Shown here one piece after another: positions 1-7,054 of a stretch of 13,950 bases of DNA. Positions within the stretch are counted from its first letter, which is position 1; the number at the start of each line of letters is the position of its first letter. The position numbers and the translations under genes were made by a program. The DNA is taken from contig SKSV01000089.1 in NCBI GenBank assembly GCA_007122815.1, positions 1-13,950 on the forward strand. Reading direction: 5' to 3'. This DNA is from Trueperaceae bacterium (GTDB lineage Bacteria > Deinococcota > Deinococci > Deinococcales > Trueperaceae). The notes below the pieces were generated by a model. The model was given only the letters and a program-made list of their open reading frames with translations, did not search any database and was not told the DNA's origin.

Positions 1-200
1 TCCCCCGTTTCGAACGGAGTGACGCACGGCTACGCCTCCTCGCGAGACCCGACCCGTGCCGGCAAGAGCCTTGTGACACGGCGCGTGAGCGATAAGCCCC
101 CGTGCAGTATGATCCCTGATGAGCACCCCACGAGAGTTCCGAAGTGGGAGGATTGGGGTACTCGTAGCGCCTCTAGTGGGGGCACGAGCAGGCGGCGCCC

Positions 201-216
201 GCCATAACGTTATGGC
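201..216. promoter_or_regulatory. Candidate parS site (left copy)
   Basis: GCCATAACGTTATGGC is a perfect 16-bp palindrome, here extended by one more pair to 18 bp (200-217). An identical 16-mer occurs at 2917-2932, and I saw no third copy. ParB family proteins commonly bind 16-bp palindromes close to their own genes, and this copy lies about 210 bp upstream of parA. The canonical chromosomal parS (TGTTTCACGTGAAACA) is not seen in the window. Role as parS is inferred from symmetry, length, duplication and location. An operator for another dimeric regulator is the main alternative. Confidence 0.55.
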
Positions 217-240
217 GAACTGGGAACCGCGCGGTACTCG

Positions 241-260
241 CGGCACGCCAAGGCGTGCCG
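241..260. promoter_or_regulatory. Inverted repeat upstream of parA, possible operator
   Basis: CGGCACGCC and GGCGTGCCG form a perfect 9-bp inverted repeat around a 2-nt AA centre. The centre is too short for a stable RNA hairpin loop, so a dimeric DNA-binding protein is more likely than a terminator. It lies 24 bp right of the candidate parS and about 165 bp before parA. Partition operons are usually autoregulated by ParA or ParB, so an operator role is reasonable but unproven. Confidence 0.35.
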
Positions 261-336
261 ACCGGCCTCTAGGCGCTCACCTCGATGGCTCTCACGCGCC
301 ACGGCACCTCGGCGCGGTTCGCGCGTCGCCGATGGG

Positions 337-369
337 TAGAATGCGGCACCGCATTCATGCGGCTCCGCA
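337..369 (+). promoter_or_regulatory. Possible parA promoter -10 overlapped by paired inverted repeats
   Basis: TAGAAT (337-342) resembles a -10 element and would place transcription start near 349, giving parAB a leader of about 75 nt. It overlaps the inverted repeat GAATGCGG-CA-CCGCATTC (339-356). A related repeat, TGCGG-CT-CCGCA (358-369), follows. The two share 12 of 13 bases (ATGCGGCACCGCA at 341-353 and ATGCGGCTCCGCA at 357-369) at a 16-bp offset. An operator overlapping a -10 is the usual layout of a repressor site. No convincing -35 is visible, so the promoter call is weak and the repeat call is stronger. Confidence 0.35.
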
Positions 370-425
370 CGAGTGTGGCTCTGCACGGTCGCTGGACGAG
401 GCGCCCAGATCGGGGATTCGATGCG

Positions 426-1235
426 ATGGTCGTGCTGACCTACTTCAACCATGCCGGCGGGGTGGCGAAGACGAGCACCATCCGAGACGTGGGCTACGTG
501 CTGGCAGAGTCTGGCCGCCGCGTTCTGTTGATCGACATGGACCCGCAGGCGAACCTGACGAAGTGGCTCGGCGTCGACGACGACATCGAGCTCGAGGAGA
601 CGGTCTACCCCGCCGTCATCGGCGCGGCCGACGACGAGGATCCCGCCGCGGAAGCCGACCTAGCGCTGCCAAGCCCGAGGCGGGTCCACGGCATGGACCT
701 CATTCCCGCGCACCTCAACATTGCGATCATCGAGCGCGAGATCCTCAGCGTCTTCATGGGCGTGGTTAGGTTGCGCGAGGCGGTCCGAAGGTTGGATGGC
801 TACGACCTCGTGCTGATCGACCCCCCACCGAGCCTGGGGCAGCTCTCGGCGCTGGCCGTGGTGGCGGCTGACCGCGTGGTGGTCCCACTGCCGACCAACC
901 GAAAGGGTCTCGATGGGATCCAGACCGTGATCAAGATGGTGCGCGAGTACCGCAAGGCGGCGCCAGGGCTCGACGTCGCGTTGTTCGTCCTCACCCAGCA
1001 CGACCGCCGGACGCGCCACGACAGAGAGAGCTTCGAGATCATCGCTGCTCAGTTGCCAGCGTTGGCGCCCATCTCGTCTCCCCTCTCGAGTCGGCCCGCC
1101 TACTACAGCGACGCCCAGGTTCAAGGCATGCCGATACCGGTCTACGCTCCTGGCAGCGACGCCGACAGGGAGATCCGGCAGGTCGCGAGCGAGCTCCTTG
1201 CCGCGCTCGGGGAGAAGACTGATGGCGGCCCGTAA
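426..1235 (+). CDS. parA: ParA-family partition ATPase, plasmid-type variant
   Basis: This 269-residue protein is a ParA/MinD-type P-loop ATPase, which would drive DNA segregation with ParB. The nucleotide site is visible: a Walker A variant at residues 8-18 (NHAGGVAKTST), the D-M-D-P-Q segment at 37-41, and D-P-P-P at 132-135. In the canonical KGGVGKTT the first lysine is the signature lysine of deviant Walker A ATPases; here that position is Ala10, and the third glycine of the loop is Ala14. I recall similar AGGV-KT loops in ParA proteins of Deinococcus and cyanobacterial plasmids. The ATG at 426 is chosen because the fold begins at once (VVLTYF); the frame is open further upstream, but that translation is non-homologous looking and arginine-rich. 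A weak GGGGA lies about 8 nt before the start. Its end overlaps parB by 14 nt. Confidence 0.9.
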   Translation: MVVLTYFNHAGGVAKTSTIRDVGYVLAESGRRVLLIDMDPQANLTKWLGVDDDIELEETVYPAVIGAADDEDPAAEADLALPSPRRVHGMDLIPAHLNIAIIEREILSVFMGVVRLREAVRRLDGYDLVLIDPPPSLGQLSALAVVAADRVVVPLPTNRKGLDGIQTVIKMVREYRKAAPGLDVALFVLTQHDRRTRHDRESFEIIAAQLPALAPISSPLSSRPAYYSDAQVQGMPIPVYAPGSDADREIRQVASELLAALGEKTDGGP

Positions 1236-2166
1236 GCGGCGAGGCGACATCGACCGCGCAGCGGTGTTCGAAGCGATCCTGGGTGATCTAGGCCGTGGTC
1301 AGGCGGAGGCGCCAGCGCCGCCGGCTAGGATCCCGCTCGACGCGATCCGGCTGAACGAGCAGCAACCGAGACACCACATGGACCCCACCGCCCTGGCTCA
1401 ACTGACGGCGTCTGTGCGCCAACGGGGTGTGCTAGAGCCGGTGCTGGTACGCCGGGTCGACGACGAGTACGAGCTCGTTGCTGGTGAACGGCGCACGCAA
1501 GCCGCTAGAGAGGCAGGCTTGCTCGAGATCCCAGCCATCGTCCTGGAGCTAGACGACAGGGAGGCTCTCGAGATCTCCATCATCGAGAACCTCCAGCGCG
1601 AGGACTTGAACGCAGTCGAGGAGACCGAGGCGGTGCTCGCCCTGTTGGGCTTGACCCTCGACCTCGACCCCTCGGGGGTCATGGCCCTACTCAACGACGT
1701 CTACCAGCGTGACCGTGGGCGCGCGGGCGACGACAGCTTCAGCGAAGAGCAACGAGAGACGGCGGTCGAGTTGTTCGAGCGCATGGGACGTTTCACGCCG
1801 TCGTCGTTCTTCGTCAACCGCGTGCCGATCCTGTCCTTCCAGGAGGATCTGCTCGAGGCTGTACGCACCGGCCGGATCGCCTTCACCAAGGCGCAAGCGA
1901 TAGCCAGGCTCGAGTCGCCAGAGCAGCGACGTGCGCTACTCGGCGAGGCGATCGAGCAGAACCTGAGCCTCAGCCAGATCCGACGCCGCATCACGGAGAT
2001 GCGCGCGGACGAGGCCGTGGAACAGCCGATCGGAGAGCGTGTCGTACTGGCCCTCAACTCCGCCAAGCGGCTGCTCTCTCGGCGCAGGGTCGCTGCGCTC
2101 CCCGAGGACCAACGGTTGAGGCTGGCCGAGTTGCTCGAGGAAGTGCAGCGCGTGCTAGAGAGCTGA
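1222..2166 (+). CDS. parB: ParB/Spo0J-family partition protein, plasmid-type variant
   Basis: This 314-residue protein is the likely centromere-binding partner of ParA. The N-terminal CTP-binding domain is clear: QQPRHHMD (47-54), LVAGERRTQAAREAG (85-99, the GERR motif) and IIENLQREDLNAVEETEA (120-137). After that it departs from chromosomal ParB. The usual short helix-turn-helix that follows ENLQRE is replaced by a longer segment at about 150-230 (ALLNDVYQRDRG, then SFFVNRVPIL, then GRIAFTKAQAIARL). I recall this architecture from cyanobacterial and Deinococcus plasmid ParBs. A basic, coiled C-terminus (280-314) probably dimerises. The ATG at 1222 has GGGGAG 7 nt upstream and overlaps the parA end, indicating translational coupling. 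A TTG 24 nt earlier is in frame but has no such site. Its binding sites may be the palindromes at 201-216 and 2917-2932. Confidence 0.9.
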   Translation: MAARKRRGDIDRAAVFEAILGDLGRGQAEAPAPPARIPLDAIRLNEQQPRHHMDPTALAQLTASVRQRGVLEPVLVRRVDDEYELVAGERRTQAAREAGLLEIPAIVLELDDREALEISIIENLQREDLNAVEETEAVLALLGLTLDLDPSGVMALLNDVYQRDRGRAGDDSFSEEQRETAVELFERMGRFTPSSFFVNRVPILSFQEDLLEAVRTGRIAFTKAQAIARLESPEQRRALLGEAIEQNLSLSQIRRRITEMRADEAVEQPIGERVVLALNSAKRLLSRRRVAALPEDQRLRLAELLEEVQRVLES

Positions 2167-2353
2167 GGCAGCTGGGCCGCCGTGGGACACCGTCGCGGAG
2201 CATCGTGTTGACGGGTGCGCCGCTCGGTCCATTGGGCCGGGGAGGTACCCTAGCTTTCCCACTTCTGCTGCGCGAAACTGAGTGGCGTGTCGGTCGGACC
2301 GGTGCCCACTCGTCGTTCTCGACGGGCGCTCGGCGCCACAGACCCAGGCGCGT

Positions 2354-2369
2354 AGACGGCGTACCGTCT
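2354..2369. promoter_or_regulatory. Inverted repeat just before the bcp ribosome-binding site
   Basis: AGACGG and CCGTCT form a perfect 6-bp inverted repeat around CGTA, ending 5 nt before the GGGAGG ribosome-binding site (2374-2379) of the peroxiredoxin gene. It could be an operator or, in RNA, a 4-nt-loop hairpin affecting ribosome access. No matching copy was seen elsewhere and I cannot assign a regulator. Confidence 0.3.
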
Positions 2370-2385
2370 TCACGGGAGGTATGGG

Positions 2386-2853
2386 ATGCTGAACGTAGGC
2401 GACAAGGCCCCCTCGTTCGAGCTCGGCGACCACGAGGGCAAGCGGCACAAGCTCGATGACTACCGCGGTGGCTGGTTGGTCGTGTACTTCTACCCGAAGG
2501 ACGACACGCCCGGTTGCACGAAGGAGGCGTGCGGGTTCAGGGACTCGCTCGCCGACTTCGCCGATCTCGACGCCGCGGTGCTAGGCGTATCGGCGGACGA
2601 TGCCTCGGCCCACCAGGAGTTCGCCAAGAAGTACGAACTGAACTTCCCGCTTCTGGTCGACCCCGACAAGTCGATGCTCGAGGCCTACGGCGCTTGGGGC
2701 GAGAAGACGCGCTACGGGAAGACGCACTTAGGGGTGAACCGCATCACGTACGTGATCGATCCAGACGGCAACGTCGCCAAGGCCTGGTCCGCTGTGAAGG
2801 CTGAAGGTCACGCCGACGAGGTTCGCACAGCGTTGGCCGAGCTGCAGGCTTGA
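2386..2853 (+). CDS. bcp: Thioredoxin-dependent peroxiredoxin, BCP/PrxQ type
   Basis: This 155-residue cytosolic peroxidase would reduce hydrogen peroxide and organic hydroperoxides using thioredoxin-supplied electrons. It reads end to end as an AhpC/TSA-type Prx: VGDKAPSFEL at the start, then DDTPGCTKEACGFRD with the peroxidatic Cys44 and a resolving Cys49 five residues later, the atypical 2-Cys arrangement of E. coli BCP. GVNRITYVIDPDGNV (about 115-129) is the conserved late beta strand region. Length matches the family. The ATG at 2386 has GGGAGG 6 nt upstream; an overlapping ATG at 2381 is out of frame. It stands alone, 219 bp after parB and converging on the iron importer, so a shared operon with parAB is possible but not indicated by spacing. 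Confidence 0.95.
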   Translation: MLNVGDKAPSFELGDHEGKRHKLDDYRGGWLVVYFYPKDDTPGCTKEACGFRDSLADFADLDAAVLGVSADDASAHQEFAKKYELNFPLLVDPDKSMLEAYGAWGEKTRYGKTHLGVNRITYVIDPDGNVAKAWSAVKAEGHADEVRTALAELQA

Positions 2854-2916
2854 TCTGGCGGGCGCCAGGGGCGCTGCCTAGAACAGCGAGGTCGCGCTGG
2901 TTGTGTCGAGGCGGTT

Positions 2917-2932
2917 GCCATAACGTTATGGC
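2917..2932. promoter_or_regulatory. Candidate parS site (right copy)
   Basis: This is an exact second copy of GCCATAACGTTATGGC, about 2.7 kb from the first and also outside any gene. The two copies match over 17 nt when the following G is included and differ beyond that, so conservation stops at the limits of the palindrome. That pattern suggests selection for a protein-binding site rather than recent duplication of a longer element. Together the copies bracket parA, parB and bcp. Confidence 0.55.
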
Positions 2933-3311: not shown

Positions 3312-4412
3312 TCAGGCTCTCTTGGCGGCGTGCTGCCCTGACCTCGACTCCAGCGGTACCGCGGCCCCGCGCACGTGGACCGGGAGGACGTCCCCGACCT
3401 GAACCGAGCACTCGGGTCCGGTCTGCACGATGAGCCTCAGGCGCTCTCCGTCGGAGAGCTGGCAGGTGTAGGTGAGATCGTGACCCTTGAACTCGCGCTG
3501 GAGCACGCGGACTTCGGCGCCGCTGCCGTTGGGGCTGAACGCGATCGCCTCGGGCCTGACGGAGAGCATGACCTGCCCGTGCGCCGGGCGCGTCAGCGCG
3601 AGGTCTCCCAGGGGAGTACGTGCAGCGCTACCTTGACCATCACCGCGGATCAGGTTCGTTCGACCGAGGAAGCTCGCCACGAAGGCGGTCTCGGGTCGGC
3701 CGTAGACACCTTCGGGAGTACCGACCTGCTCCAGCCGCCCCGAGCGCATCAGCGCGATGCGGTCCGCGAATGTCATGGCCTCCTCCTGATCGTGGGTGAC
3801 CAAGATGGCGGTGGTACCCGTGCGCTTGAGGATCTGCCTCACCTCGGCGCGGGTCGAGCCGCGCAGCGCGGCATCGAGGTTGCTGAACGGTTCGTCCAGC
3901 AAGATGACCGTGGGAGCGGGCGCCAGGGCGCGAGCGAGGGCGACGCGTTGCTGCTGGCCGCCGGAGAGCTGGTGCGGGTAGCGGCCCGCGAAGATCGTGA
4001 GACCCACCAGGTCGAGGACCGCGTCGGCTTGTGCGAGGCGAGCGACCTTGGTCCCCTCGCGGAGACCGAAAGCGACGTTCTGACGCACGGTCAGGTGCGG
4101 GAACAGGGCGTAATCCTGGAACACGAAGCCGAGACGGCGGTTCTCGGGTTCGACCCATGTGCCGGCGTCGGCGACCGTACGGCCGGCGATACGCACGCTA
4201 CCGGCGTCGGGCATCTCGAAGCCCGCGATCAACCGCAGCAGCGTCGTCTTGCCGCAGCCTGAGGGGCCCAGCAGGCAGAGGATCTCTCCGGACGCCACGT
4301 CGAGGTCGAGCTGCTCGACCGCGGCGTGGTCGCTGCGGCCGTAGCGCTTCGAGACGGCCCGCAGCTCCAGAACGGGCTTGGGCCGGTGGGGGAGAGTTAC
4401 TTCACCGTCCAT
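3312..4412 (-). CDS. fbpC: Ferric iron ABC transporter ATP-binding protein
   Basis: This 366-residue protein is the ATPase of an iron(III) importer. The nucleotide-binding domain is complete: Walker A GPSGCGKTT (49-57), Q-loop Gln99 in FQDYALFPH, signature LSGGQ (149-153), Walker B VILLDE (169-174) and switch His207. A TOBE-type C-terminal regulatory domain follows (about 265-350, including LSVRPEAIAFSP). The FVFQDYALFPHLTVRQNVAFGL run and TOBE tail place it in the Fbp/spermidine/molybdate group; the adjacent genes decide for ferric iron. The ATG at 4412 is the first usable start, since an in-frame TAG lies 15 nt upstream of it. It is the last gene of the operon, 69 nt after the permease stop, with no strong ribosome-binding site. 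Substrate class is inferred from context. Confidence 0.9.
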   Translation of the reverse strand: MDGEVTLPHRPKPVLELRAVSKRYGRSDHAAVEQLDLDVASGEILCLLGPSGCGKTTLLRLIAGFEMPDAGSVRIAGRTVADAGTWVEPENRRLGFVFQDYALFPHLTVRQNVAFGLREGTKVARLAQADAVLDLVGLTIFAGRYPHQLSGGQQQRVALARALAPAPTVILLDEPFSNLDAALRGSTRAEVRQILKRTGTTAILVTHDQEEAMTFADRIALMRSGRLEQVGTPEGVYGRPETAFVASFLGRTNLIRGDGQGSAARTPLGDLALTRPAHGQVMLSVRPEAIAFSPNGSGAEVRVLQREFKGHDLTYTCQLSDGERLRLIVQTGPECSVQVGDVLPVHVRGAAVPLESRSGQHAAKRA

Positions 4413-4481
4413 CGCAGCGCCCGCAGTCTAACGGCCATTCCCGACACGTAGGGTAGGTCTTGCGTCATGTAGCGGCGCCTC

Positions 4482-6068
4482 TCACCTGCGTCCCTCGTAG
4501 CTCACGAGCAGGCCGACGAAGAGGCTCGAGAACAGGACTATCGCCAGCGCGAAAGGCGCGGCCTCGGCCATCATGCCTTCCGACGTGCGCGTGAACACCC
4601 GCACCGCCAAGGTCGTGAAGCCCGTGGGCGCGAGCAAGAACGTGAGCGGCAGCTCCTTCATCGCGACCATCAACACCAAGGCCGTACCGGCGATGACGGG
4701 CCTACGGATCAGCGGGAAGGTCGTCTGGAAGAAGGCTACGAAAGGAACGCGCCCCAGCGAGCGCGCCGCTTCCTCCAAGCGCGGGGGTACCTGCATCAAG
4801 GCCGATCGTATGGGGCCTATCGCGAGCGCCAGGAAGCTGATGACGTACGCGACGATCAGGATCGTCGTGGTCTGGTACAGCCACGGGACGGTGCGGAGCG
4901 AGAAGAACACCAGCGCCAGCGCCAACGAGACCGGCGGGATGGCGTAACCGAGGTAGGCGAGGCGCTCTATCACGCGGCTGCCCCGCAGACGTACTCGAGC
5001 CGCCAGGTACGCGATGGGCATGGCCGCGAGAGCGGTTACGATGGCGGCCGGAGCCGCCACCGAGGCGGTGCGAACGAAGGCCTCGCCGACAGACTGCCAA
5101 GCTGCGAGGCTCGGCGGTGCCAGCAAGATCCAGGACCCCAACACCAGGAACGGCAAGCCGAGCGCGGCGAGCAGCACCAGCGCGACGTAGGCGTACGCCA
5201 GCGGCGCCCAACCCTTGAGCTTGGTGATGACCACCGCGCGCTGTGAGCCGCTGCCCGTGCGGGCGTACCTGCGCCTTCCCAGCAGGCGCCCCTCGGTAGC
5301 GACTATCAAGAGCGTCAGGCCCAAGAGGAGGAGCGAGAGCAGAGCCGCGTAGGTGCGGTCGAAGGCCGAGGAGTACTGGAGGTAGATCGCGTAGGAGAAC
5401 GCCTCGAAGCGCATCAGCGCCACTACCCCGAAGTCGCCTAGCACGTAGAGCGAGATGACCAGCCAACCCGCCAGGAGCGCGGGCCTGAGTTGCGGCAGGA
5501 TCACACGCGTCACCACGGCGCGGCTCGAGTGCCCGAGGCTCCTGGCGCTCTCCTCGAGGCTCGGGTCCAACCCGAGCAGGGCTGCGCGGACGTTGAGGAA
5601 CAGGTACGGGTAGGTGTACAGGGCCAACGCCGCCACGGCCCCCCAGTAACCGCTCGGGCGCGGGACGATCGTGCCCGTCAGCTGCGTGACGAAGCCGTTG
5701 GAGCCGCCGAGGCTGATGAGCGCGTACGCCACGACGTAACCGGGGATCGCCAGCGGGACCACCGACAGGATCGTGACCCACCGCCTCCAGGGCAGGTCGG
5801 AGCGCACCGTTAGCCAAGCCAGCGGGACGGCCATCACGGTGGTCAGCGCCAGGACACCGCCAGTGAGCGACAAGGTGTTGACCAGCAGCGTCCAGGTCCG
5901 CTCGCGCAGGACCAAGCGCTGCACCGTGGCCAGGTCGCCGTCGAAGGCGCGCAATGCCAGGTACACGATCGGCACCAGCGTGCCGATCCCGGCCACGATG
6001 GCCGGGATCAACACGAACCAGGGGAGGCGCCGCGCGCGGCGCGCCCAGATCAGCGGCGAGCTCGTCAG
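4482..6068 (-). CDS. fbpB: Ferric iron ABC transporter permease (double-domain)
   Basis: This inner-membrane permease contains two fused binding-protein-dependent permease domains, the FbpB/SfuB arrangement, with about 12 transmembrane segments. Each half carries the EAA loop that contacts the ATPase: LEESARSLGHS in the first and LEEAARSLGRV in the second (153-163 and 413-423 when counted from the GTG at 6014). A GTG at 6014 is the first standard start, but it falls inside the first membrane helix and has no ribosome-binding site. The frame continues upstream as LTSSPLIWARRARRLPWF, a basic cytoplasmic leader typical of these permeases, to a CTG at 6068 that overlaps the fbpA stop as CTGA. GGGAGGT lies about 9 nt before that CTG. 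I therefore extend the gene to 6068 (528 residues). The start is inferred; the family is clear. Confidence 0.88.
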   Translation of the reverse strand: MTSSPLIWARRARRLPWFVLIPAIVAGIGTLVPIVYLALRAFDGDLATVQRLVLRERTWTLLVNTLSLTGGVLALTTVMAVPLAWLTVRSDLPWRRWVTILSVVPLAIPGYVVAYALISLGGSNGFVTQLTGTIVPRPSGYWGAVAALALYTYPYLFLNVRAALLGLDPSLEESARSLGHSSRAVVTRVILPQLRPALLAGWLVISLYVLGDFGVVALMRFEAFSYAIYLQYSSAFDRTYAALLSLLLLGLTLLIVATEGRLLGRRRYARTGSGSQRAVVITKLKGWAPLAYAYVALVLLAALGLPFLVLGSWILLAPPSLAAWQSVGEAFVRTASVAAPAAIVTALAAMPIAYLAARVRLRGSRVIERLAYLGYAIPPVSLALALVFFSLRTVPWLYQTTTILIVAYVISFLALAIGPIRSALMQVPPRLEEAARSLGRVPFVAFFQTTFPLIRRPVIAGTALVLMVAMKELPLTFLLAPTGFTTLAVRVFTRTSEGMMAEAAPFALAIVLFSSLFVGLLVSYEGRR

Positions 6069-7054
6069 AGGAGGCCTACCTCCCGCAGTAGCTCGAGGGT
6101 CCCCTCGAGGTCTTCCAGGACGTCGAGGTCGACGTCAGGAGAGGCGGCCAGCAGAGCGTCGAAGCTCGCCAACGCTCCGGCGGGTTCGACACCAGGCACC
6201 ACCGGGTACTCGAAGACGACGTTGGTGAAGTACTCTTGCGAGTCCTCCTGGAGCATGAAGCTCAGGAACGCCTCGGCAGCCTCTCGGTCGTCGCTGGTGT
6301 CCACGATCCCGGCGCCGGCGACGTTCACGAGGTTCCCGACGTCGCCGTCCCCGAAGAAGCCTTGCGCGACAGGGTACGCGGGGTCGTTGGCGAGGAAGCG
6401 CAACAGGTAGTAGTTGTTGACGAGGGCGTAGTCTACCTCGCCCGCGGCGATCGCCTCGACCTGCGTCGTGTTGTTGCGGTAGGCCTGCACGTCGTTCGCG
6501 ATCATGCCACGCAGCCAGGCTTCGGTTGCGGTCTCGCCGTGTACCACGCGCATCGCGGTCACGAAGGCCTGGAAGGAGCCGTTGGTGGGCGCCCAGGCGA
6601 CGCGGCCGCGGTACTGGGGCTCGGTGAGGTCGAACACCGTGGCGGGCCACGGCGTCTCAACGCTGCGTTCGGGGCTGTACGCGAGCACGCGTGCCCTACC
6701 GCTGGTGGCGACCCAGAGGCCACCGCGACTGGTGTAGATGCCCGGCAGCCCGGCAGTGAGCTCTTCAGGCAGCGCCGACAGTCGCCCGGCCTGCGATAGC
6801 GCACCCAGGGCGCCAGCGTCCTGCCCCCAGAACACGTCCGCTGGGCTCGCGCGGCCTTCCTCGAGGATGAGGACCGCGAGCTCGGCGGTGCCCCCGTAGC
6901 GCACGCTGACCTCGATGCCGGTCTCGGCGGTGAAGCGCTCGACTATCGGCTGGACCAGCGCCTCGCCGCGGCCAGAGTAGAGCGTCAGGCTCTGGGCGCT
7001 GGCCAAGCTCCCGATGGTAAGGAGCAGTGAGATCGTCAGGAGGCGTCTGGTCAT
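6065..7054 (-). CDS. fbpA: Ferric iron periplasmic-type binding protein
   Basis: This 329-residue protein captures Fe(III) outside the membrane and delivers it to the permease. A Sec signal peptide is evident: basic MTRR, a hydrophobic stretch and a likely signal peptidase I site after Ala20 (ASA before QS); there is no lipobox Cys. The mature start LTLYSGRGEALVQPIVERF matches the FbpA/FutA/IdiA group. YRNNTTQVEAIAAGEVDYALVNNYY (192-216) ends in the paired tyrosines (Tyr215, Tyr216) that bind iron in this family. The ATG at 7054 has GGAAAGGG about 10 nt upstream. It is the first gene of the operon and overlaps the proposed permease start by 4 nt. A palindrome at 7105-7125 in its promoter region probably regulates the operon. 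Confidence 0.92.
   Translation of the reverse strand: MTRRLLTISLLLTIGSLASAQSLTLYSGRGEALVQPIVERFTAETGIEVSVRYGGTAELAVLILEEGRASPADVFWGQDAGALGALSQAGRLSALPEELTAGLPGIYTSRGGLWVATSGRARVLAYSPERSVETPWPATVFDLTEPQYRGRVAWAPTNGSFQAFVTAMRVVHGETATEAWLRGMIANDVQAYRNNTTQVEAIAAGEVDYALVNNYYLLRFLANDPAYPVAQGFFGDGDVGNLVNVAGAGIVDTSDDREAAEAFLSFMLQEDSQEYFTNVVFEYPVVPGVEPAGALASFDALLAASPDVDLDVLEDLEGTLELLREVGLL

Follow-up and report, generated by a model that had tools for sequence, protein, structure and literature searches.

A 13,950-nucleotide stretch of contig SKSV01000089.1 from a Trueperaceae bacterium (the whole stretch is called the window) carries two identical 16-bp palindromes, GCCATAACGTTATGGC, one on each side of the genes parA, parB, and bcp. 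Both are very probably parS sites, the centromere of the plasmid-type ParABS system next to them. That system would maintain a secondary replicon in bacteria of the Trueperaceae type, which have a canonical ParABS as well. The direct observations behind this assignment are the sequence itself, its clustering, its co-occurrence with one ParB, conservation limited to 16 bp, and a homologous palindrome with covarying arms in relatives. A broader proposal, which we consider likely, is that a plasmid ParB family found in Thermaceae, cyanobacteria, and one Rubrobacter encodes its own centromere at a fixed position in parB, that some lineages use external copies instead, and that the published parS of the Thermus thermophilus megaplasmid would then probably be misassigned. 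Genomes, contigs, loci, families, and genera are coded G, C, L, f, and g, with G000 the window's assembly and C47 the window contig.

The twin 16-mer and the ParB that accompanies it

Exact copies of the 16-mer were found at 201-216 and 2917-2932, where a preliminary description had placed them. As it had also stated, both lie between genes and flank parA-parB-bcp, at the distances given in the following list.

201 to 216, unstranded: predicted parS copy 1, ending 210 bp ahead of parA; the 16 bases are the core of a longer palindrome of 18 bp (200-217)
217 to 240, unstranded: tentative iteron-like element abutting parS copy 1 and resembling repeats beside parS in G004
426 to 1235, plus strand: parA, a ParA/AAA_31 ATPase (PF13614, 2.4e-32) with Walker A sequence NHAGGVAKTS
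1222 to 2166, plus strand: parB, overlapping the end of parA; its product has a CTPase-type domain (ParB_N) and matches HTH_ParB weakly and in part
1660 to 1764, plus strand: part of parB that codes for the insert (residues about 147-181) separating the CTPase-type domain from the helix-turn-helix (HTH) domain
1725 to 1744, unstranded: place equivalent to the in-gene parS of relatives, centered between the D171 and S172 codons as judged from alignment and sequence
2386 to 2853, plus strand: bcp, a PrxQ-type peroxiredoxin, downstream of parAB in relatives whose contigs extend that far
2917 to 2932, unstranded: predicted parS copy 2, beginning 67 bp past the last bcp sense codon

A chance origin of the pair is very unlikely, as the description had argued: allowing up to 3 mismatches, the window holds two matches versus 0.01 expected, with none beyond the two copies, and two matches were reached in 0 of 200 dinucleotide shuffles. 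Flank comparison agreed that identity between the copies ends one base beyond the 16-mer. In this DNA of 69% GC, only three perfect palindromes of at least 16 bp occur, the two 16-mers and a GC-only one at 6027. Across the whole G000 assembly (2,430,151 bases in 439 contigs, 72.7% complete), GCCATAACGTTATGGC was found at up to 2 mismatches at the window's two sites only. A repeat search of window positions 1-425 found no direct repeats, which weighs on the iteron-like element at 217-240.

A search of the class (111 genomes, up to 1 mismatch) found the 16-mer in 21 genomes. Within the host family of 39 genomes, an orthologue of the window ParB (E value of 1e-34 or better, 52 to 100% identity) is present in 18, and 17 of these 18 have the 16-mer versus 0 of the 21 without this ParB (Fisher p = 3.5e-10, a figure that ignores relatedness). 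The 18th carrier, G036, has two degenerate copies with 2 mismatches each, 1136 bp upstream of parA and 17 bp past bcp. The 17 carriers hold 42 sites, of which 38 lie on the parB contig, two (G028) on a separate contig with bcp, and two (G001) on a contig without parB or bcp (L161). The G001 sites were placed solely by their 319-bp spacing, the same as separates the downstream pair in G003 and in G004, and apart from these G001 sites every match in the class lies on a parB or bcp contig. Clustering at orthologous parAB, the pattern that the description had proposed to look for in relatives, was what this search returned.

Two layouts were seen. In the window genus and g16, one copy lies upstream of parA and one or two lie past bcp, with bcp as far as about 3 kb from parAB in g16; in g5, g15, and g8 (except G036), two or three copies lie upstream of parA. 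A single copy was seen in G002, whose contig breaks off. In all 17 carriers, parA has its nearest copy 154 to 304 bp upstream. The parS reading of the description is supported by the clustering and co-occurrence in these sequences, and the bracketing that it emphasized is only one of the two layouts. When 44 sites (up to 2 mismatches) were aligned, with no fixed orientation for the G001 pair on L161, the 16 columns carried 1.5 to 2.0 bits each and flanking columns at most 0.77.

The parA and parB reading frames overlap, and the two genes would be co-transcribed as parts of the same operon. The N-terminal CTPase-type domain of ParB (PF02195, 1e-28) contains GERR and ENLQR motifs in which G88, E89, R90, R91, E122, N123, L124, and R126 are invariant in 14 aligned rows. 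The ENLQR motif has a role in CTP binding. A role of GERR in CTP binding is taken from a review. The HTH_ParB match (PF17762, 3.5e-06, profile positions 36-100 of 102) is weak and divergent. With a CTPase-type domain, HTH_ParB, a neighboring ParA-type ATPase, and few palindromic sites clustered at parAB, the locus has the features of type I ParABS; its ParA lacks the signature lysine of the deviant Walker A motif that is standard for that type, and the system is therefore named a variant. This lysine is missing in all 41 relatives with a ParA match, while the other ParA of G000 reads NQKGGVGKT. The motif is HAGGVAKT in the window and in 17/17 family loci, HAGG in 10/10 Thermus-type, 4/4 Deinococcus, and 1/1 Rubrobacter loci, and NQ[SA]GGV in 9 of 11 cyanobacterial loci, the other two giving no ParA match. 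McdA is a known ParA-type protein without the signature lysine (PMC6328274).

A palindrome inside parB in the wider family

The exact 16-mer also occurs in four genomes outside the host family (f4 g20: G039, G088, G105, and G106), in all four inside a parB homologue, where it encodes GHNVMA. These Thermaceae-like genomes are taken as Thermus or a near genus because the parB of G098, also of g20, is nearly equal to that of T. thermophilus HB27. In further relatives, palindromes with an AACGTT core were found inside parB or beside parAB.

Complementarity along parB was measured by aligning the proteins and comparing 10 bases on each side at every codon position and phase. Set 1 comprised 56 ParB genes (30 class-search loci, two more class loci, and 24 annotated plasmid records). 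Its best position, located by scanning, follows the N codon of an xNV motif and averages 9.33 of 10 pairs over 52 genes, two of which score 4 or less; the other 4 of the 56 genes are gapped there. The background over 842 positions averages 2.63 (standard deviation [sd], 0.69), and the runner-up reaches 5.14. Set 2 came from 145 evenly drawn cyanobacterial genomes, 51 of which had a match at 1e-50 or better, and used all 95 listed genes. At the position fixed beforehand, these genes average 8.77 of 10, also the top of the scan (background, 2.47; sd, 0.59; runner-up, 4.94), with 54 genes at 10, 17 at 9, 9 at 8, and 15 at 7 or less. At least one Nostoc plasmid (L216, L359) is apparently in both sets, which are thus not entirely independent, and for some set 2 genomes the best 16 candidates were scored, so paralogues were possibly missed.

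In codon shuffles that keep the protein (200 per gene), 0 to 7 reach the palindrome length in genes where the in-gene site is the longest palindrome and at least 16 bp, and at least 35 of 200 do so in genes without such a palindrome. Residue pairs coded by reverse complements around N-V are H-M, Q-L, D-I, and R-S/T/A. Five solved ParB/Noc chains match the family profile in two blocks, the CTPase-type domain and the HTH, separated by about 32 to 38 positions in the profile versus at most 6 residues in the chain. The in-gene site falls within this insert, which the aligned solved ParBs lack and which looks dispensable.

Both arms of the palindrome change together. The 147 sites comprise 120 distinct 24-mers; in 98 to 109 of these 120, complementary pairs occur at positions 4 to 10 as counted from the center, with three or four pair types at each position. 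Shuffled arms gave means of 40 to 83, and 0 of 2,000 shuffles reached the observed pairing, a comparison that ignores relatedness, with many arm types present in both sets. Positions 1 to 3 hardly vary, and the core changes symmetrically in three genes, to GAC|GTC in two and AGC|GCT in one. Coding constraint alone would not be expected to drive joint change of both arms.

External copies were sought in about 1.5 kb on each side of most loci and in 2.5 to 5 kb for plasmid records. Of 129 loci with an in-gene site, 26 have extra AACGTT palindromes outside parB, 30 in total, and 24 of these 30 differ from the in-gene site of their own locus at no more than 1 of 20 positions, compared with 2.8% of 3,840 cross-locus comparisons. 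This is the pattern expected of several sites for one DNA-binding protein. Four of the six nonmatching palindromes are in Thermus-type loci (L172 twice, L190, and L192), with a further piece of parB close to L192 (G093). Many external cyanobacterial copies lie 690 to 1,125 bp before the parB start, which would be around the start of parA, whose position there is inferred. On pAQ6 of Picosynechococcus PCC 7002, the in-gene site recurs three times within the 4 kb fetched.

Some loci carry palindromes of other kinds. The Deinococcus plasmids L166 and L167 have external palindromes CTCTTAACGTTAAGAG, in 1 and 4 copies, and a parB that is gapped at the in-gene position. L348 and L174, without an AACGTT site, have other palindromes before parB (TGAGTAAGATCGATCTTACTCA twice and TGTTCATACCGGTATGAACA, respectively), perhaps sites of other specificity.

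The window shares the AACGTT core and ParB homology with the family that has in-gene sites, and the exact 16-mer with four Thermaceae-like genomes. Its ParB has the insert and no palindrome at the xNV position, placing the window itself outside the in-gene group. In a tree of 121 rows (a quick method, with every other cyanobacterial row used, short rows dropped, and 41 of the 118 inner branches left open), the Trueperaceae form one group of 18 rows (98), set among rows mostly with in-gene sites, and the neighbor L034 (86) has one. The Trueperaceae lineage probably lost the in-gene copy once, on its stem, and keeps the site outside parB; several Deinococcus plasmids likewise carry external copies instead. 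The description had expected the site, if confirmed, to define the centromere of this ParAB subfamily. The centromere role gains support from these alignments, and the ParB family turned out to be far wider, with the site usually inside parB there.

Comparison with known partition sites

On megaplasmid pTT27 of T. thermophilus, parABSm has a ParB homologous to that of the window (40 to 41% identity) and is likewise a second system beside a chromosomal one. Its partition site is inside parBm, unlike the window sites, which are outside parB. The published HB27 parSm is AAGGACGCGTCCTT, from which the window sites differ; it is backed by electrophoretic mobility shift assays (EMSA) with competitors and by ParBm-green fluorescent protein foci in Escherichia coli, in which the authors preferred to attribute the site to parBm itself (PMC4409726). 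The assignment was retained in PMC10085754. This published sequence, at codon ~220, is exact in 3 of 55 family genes, and its column shows no conserved palindromicity over the 55 genes (2.16 of 7). Of 200 codon shuffles made from HB27 parB, 35 gave a palindrome as long as the published one. HB27 has the family palindrome as TAGGGACAACGTTGTTCCTA, at codon ~160, with 9 of 10 positions paired; only this second position is palindromic throughout the family. Both palindromes lie in parBm of HB27 pTT27 (NC_005838.1; 79160 and 79341), 181 bp apart and once each in the plasmid, and HB8 has an identical copy of the family 20-mer 0.76 kb past parB. The E. coli foci fit either HB27 palindrome, and these comparisons suggest that the published parSm may be the wrong one.

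A parS site inside a gene is already known as such, and the wider point would be that a whole family of plasmid ParBs has its centromere encoded within parB. Bacillus subtilis has a parS within spo0J. In Streptomyces SCP1 parABS1, the parS1 site lies within parB1; it is a 13-bp site found by chromatin immunoprecipitation sequencing on one plasmid, and a fixed, covarying family position is not described in the available text (PMC13245405). The parS of repABC plasmids (GTTNNNNGCNNNNAAC) resembles the AACGTT family in having a constant core with variable positions and in sometimes lying in coding sequence or at the repB 5' end, but has another consensus and another replication gene, repC (PMC9040568). 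The canonical parS, TGTTNCACGTGAAACA (consensus quoted in PMC4409726), is like the window site a 16-bp palindrome with an ACGT center, present in few copies near parAB and served by the same ParB domains, and differs in its arms. Chromosome II and the megaplasmid of Deinococcus radiodurans are same-phylum secondary replicons with their own ParBs, but their parS-like sites are arrays of 18-bp direct repeats, or iterons (PMC7671480).

A literature search of titles and abstracts, with most subscription papers outside its reach, did not find a family-wide in-gene parS among the matches listed, and novelty is accordingly not proven. The same search gave no match for an AACGTT palindrome with ParB or for a cyanobacterial plasmid parS as a centromere, and for the string ATAACGTTAT it gave nothing on partition by title or abstract start.

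Replicon context and competing explanations

A Rep3-family initiator (PF01051) lies on the parB contig in 14 of the 18 carriers, divergent from parA, with the edge of its domain 1.0 to 1.4 kb from the nearest parS; PF21205 was also matched in the two Rep3 proteins scanned. Three carriers (G000, G036, and G110) have Rep3 on a separate contig, and the search of G010 found none. All three relatives examined have degenerate direct repeats in the interval from Rep3 to parS, and the window contig ends before Rep3. Because the initiator shares the parB contig in these 14 carriers, parABS and Rep3 would form the rep-par module of a secondary replicon. When 20 kb around parAB of G025 was compared with the single-contig G013 (same genus, without this ParB), no match longer than ~340 bases was found among the matches listed, the best 40 of 303 candidates being scored. 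The RepA of Thermus/Deinococcus type (PF10134) was rejected as the partner, since it occurs in only 1 of the 39 family genomes; Rep3 fits instead.

The description had noted that the 16-mer differs from the canonical parS, and the canonical sites of G000 indeed sit on other contigs. At up to 2 mismatches, TGTTNCACGTGAAACA was found on C369 and C358 and not on C47, and C369 holds a second ParB together with one canonical site, a pair taken as the chromosomal system of G000. Each of the 16 carriers covered by a search of 61 genomes has both a second ParB match and canonical parS sites at the same tolerance.

Two further observations concern the surroundings of the locus. Contig C391 of G000 (L229, 5,275 bases) holds the Rep3 initiator of this genome near its right end, and the window may adjoin it; no end overlap of 20 to 199 bases between C391 and the window was found. 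Window positions 3312-7054 hold an ATP-binding cassette (ABC) transporter cluster (ATPase, fused permease, and binding protein), for which the top NCBIfam matches, all under the cut-off, are to families of aminoethylphosphonate type.

If the palindromes act as in known ParABS systems, ParB dimers would bind them through the HTH domain, bound ParB would load as a CTP clamp and then spread, and ParA would move the ParB-parS complex. With Rep3 about 1 kb away in most relatives, the initiator and parABS together would maintain the secondary replicon, and parAB may in addition be repressed from the upstream copy.

An improbable alternative is that parAB autoregulation uses the palindrome as an operator, with ParB or another repressor bound to it, and that it is not, or not mainly, a centromere. 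The short distance from the nearest copy to parA in the 17 carriers and the many cyanobacterial copies apparently around the parA start would suit an operator, but there are copies past bcp too, and most relatives have the site within parB, distant from the parA promoter; a dual role is possible. A function as a replication-origin element, such as a site for the Rep3 initiator or DnaA, is very improbable. Rep3 and iteron-like repeats do lie beside the upstream site in relatives, yet the core tracks ParB across different initiators (Rep3 in Trueperaceae versus replication initiator protein A in Thermus/Deinococcus plasmids), and the downstream and in-gene copies are outside the origin repeats.

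An RNA hairpin, acting in transcripts as a control element or terminator, can hardly be the answer: complementary arms would also form an RNA stem, and arm covariation fits a stem too, but the pairing runs through the center (AACGTT, with GACGTC in two genes and AGCGCT in one), which an RNA loop could not use, and sites are found within genes as well as between them, to either side of the operon. Just as little credence attaches to a chance repeat or the target of an unrelated regulator. The exact 16-mer does occur in 4 contigs of a viral collection of 2.9 million, in two of them within the same viral reading frame (SHNVMAS), and nine window proteins, including ParA and ParB, have no match on those four contigs (two covered in part); set against this are the co-occurrence of 17/18 versus 0/21, the clustering, and the in-gene homologue. 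As a search of viral contigs with a cyanobacterial ParB also confirmed no relative, a viral link was dropped and the viral occurrences were treated as chance.

Several observations weigh against the sites being the centromeres of a secondary replicon, or against the family-wide form of that proposal. The upstream copy could also be an operator. Among 151 relative loci, 22 have no in-gene site at 8/10 or better; 10 of the 22 have an external one, and for the other 12 the stretch fetched held no AACGTT site outside parB. Co-resident ParBs do not avoid a common site: 4 of 60 co-resident pairs share the central 16-mer versus 1.27 expected (permutation over 14 genomes with at least two sites), a result that led to rejection of the idea that arms serve as mutually exclusive address labels within one cell. 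Rep3 is present in five family genomes without this ParB. GC skew gives no clear origin here, with a minimum near the locus in G020, one ~14 kb off in G025, and no clear minimum at the locus on the other four contigs. Finally, the published EMSA data favor AAGGACGCGTCCTT, a different palindrome, for ParBm (PMC4409726).

Many plasmid centromeres are not known and are hard to read from sequence. If parB does carry its own site, the centromere would be readable directly from this gene in many cyanobacterial and Thermaceae plasmids, providing targets for ParB binding tests, for stable vectors, and for incompatibility prediction in cyanobacteria, for example on pAQ6 of PCC 7002. One gene would then carry lock and key together, and the evolution of ParB specificity would become testable because protein and site change together within it.

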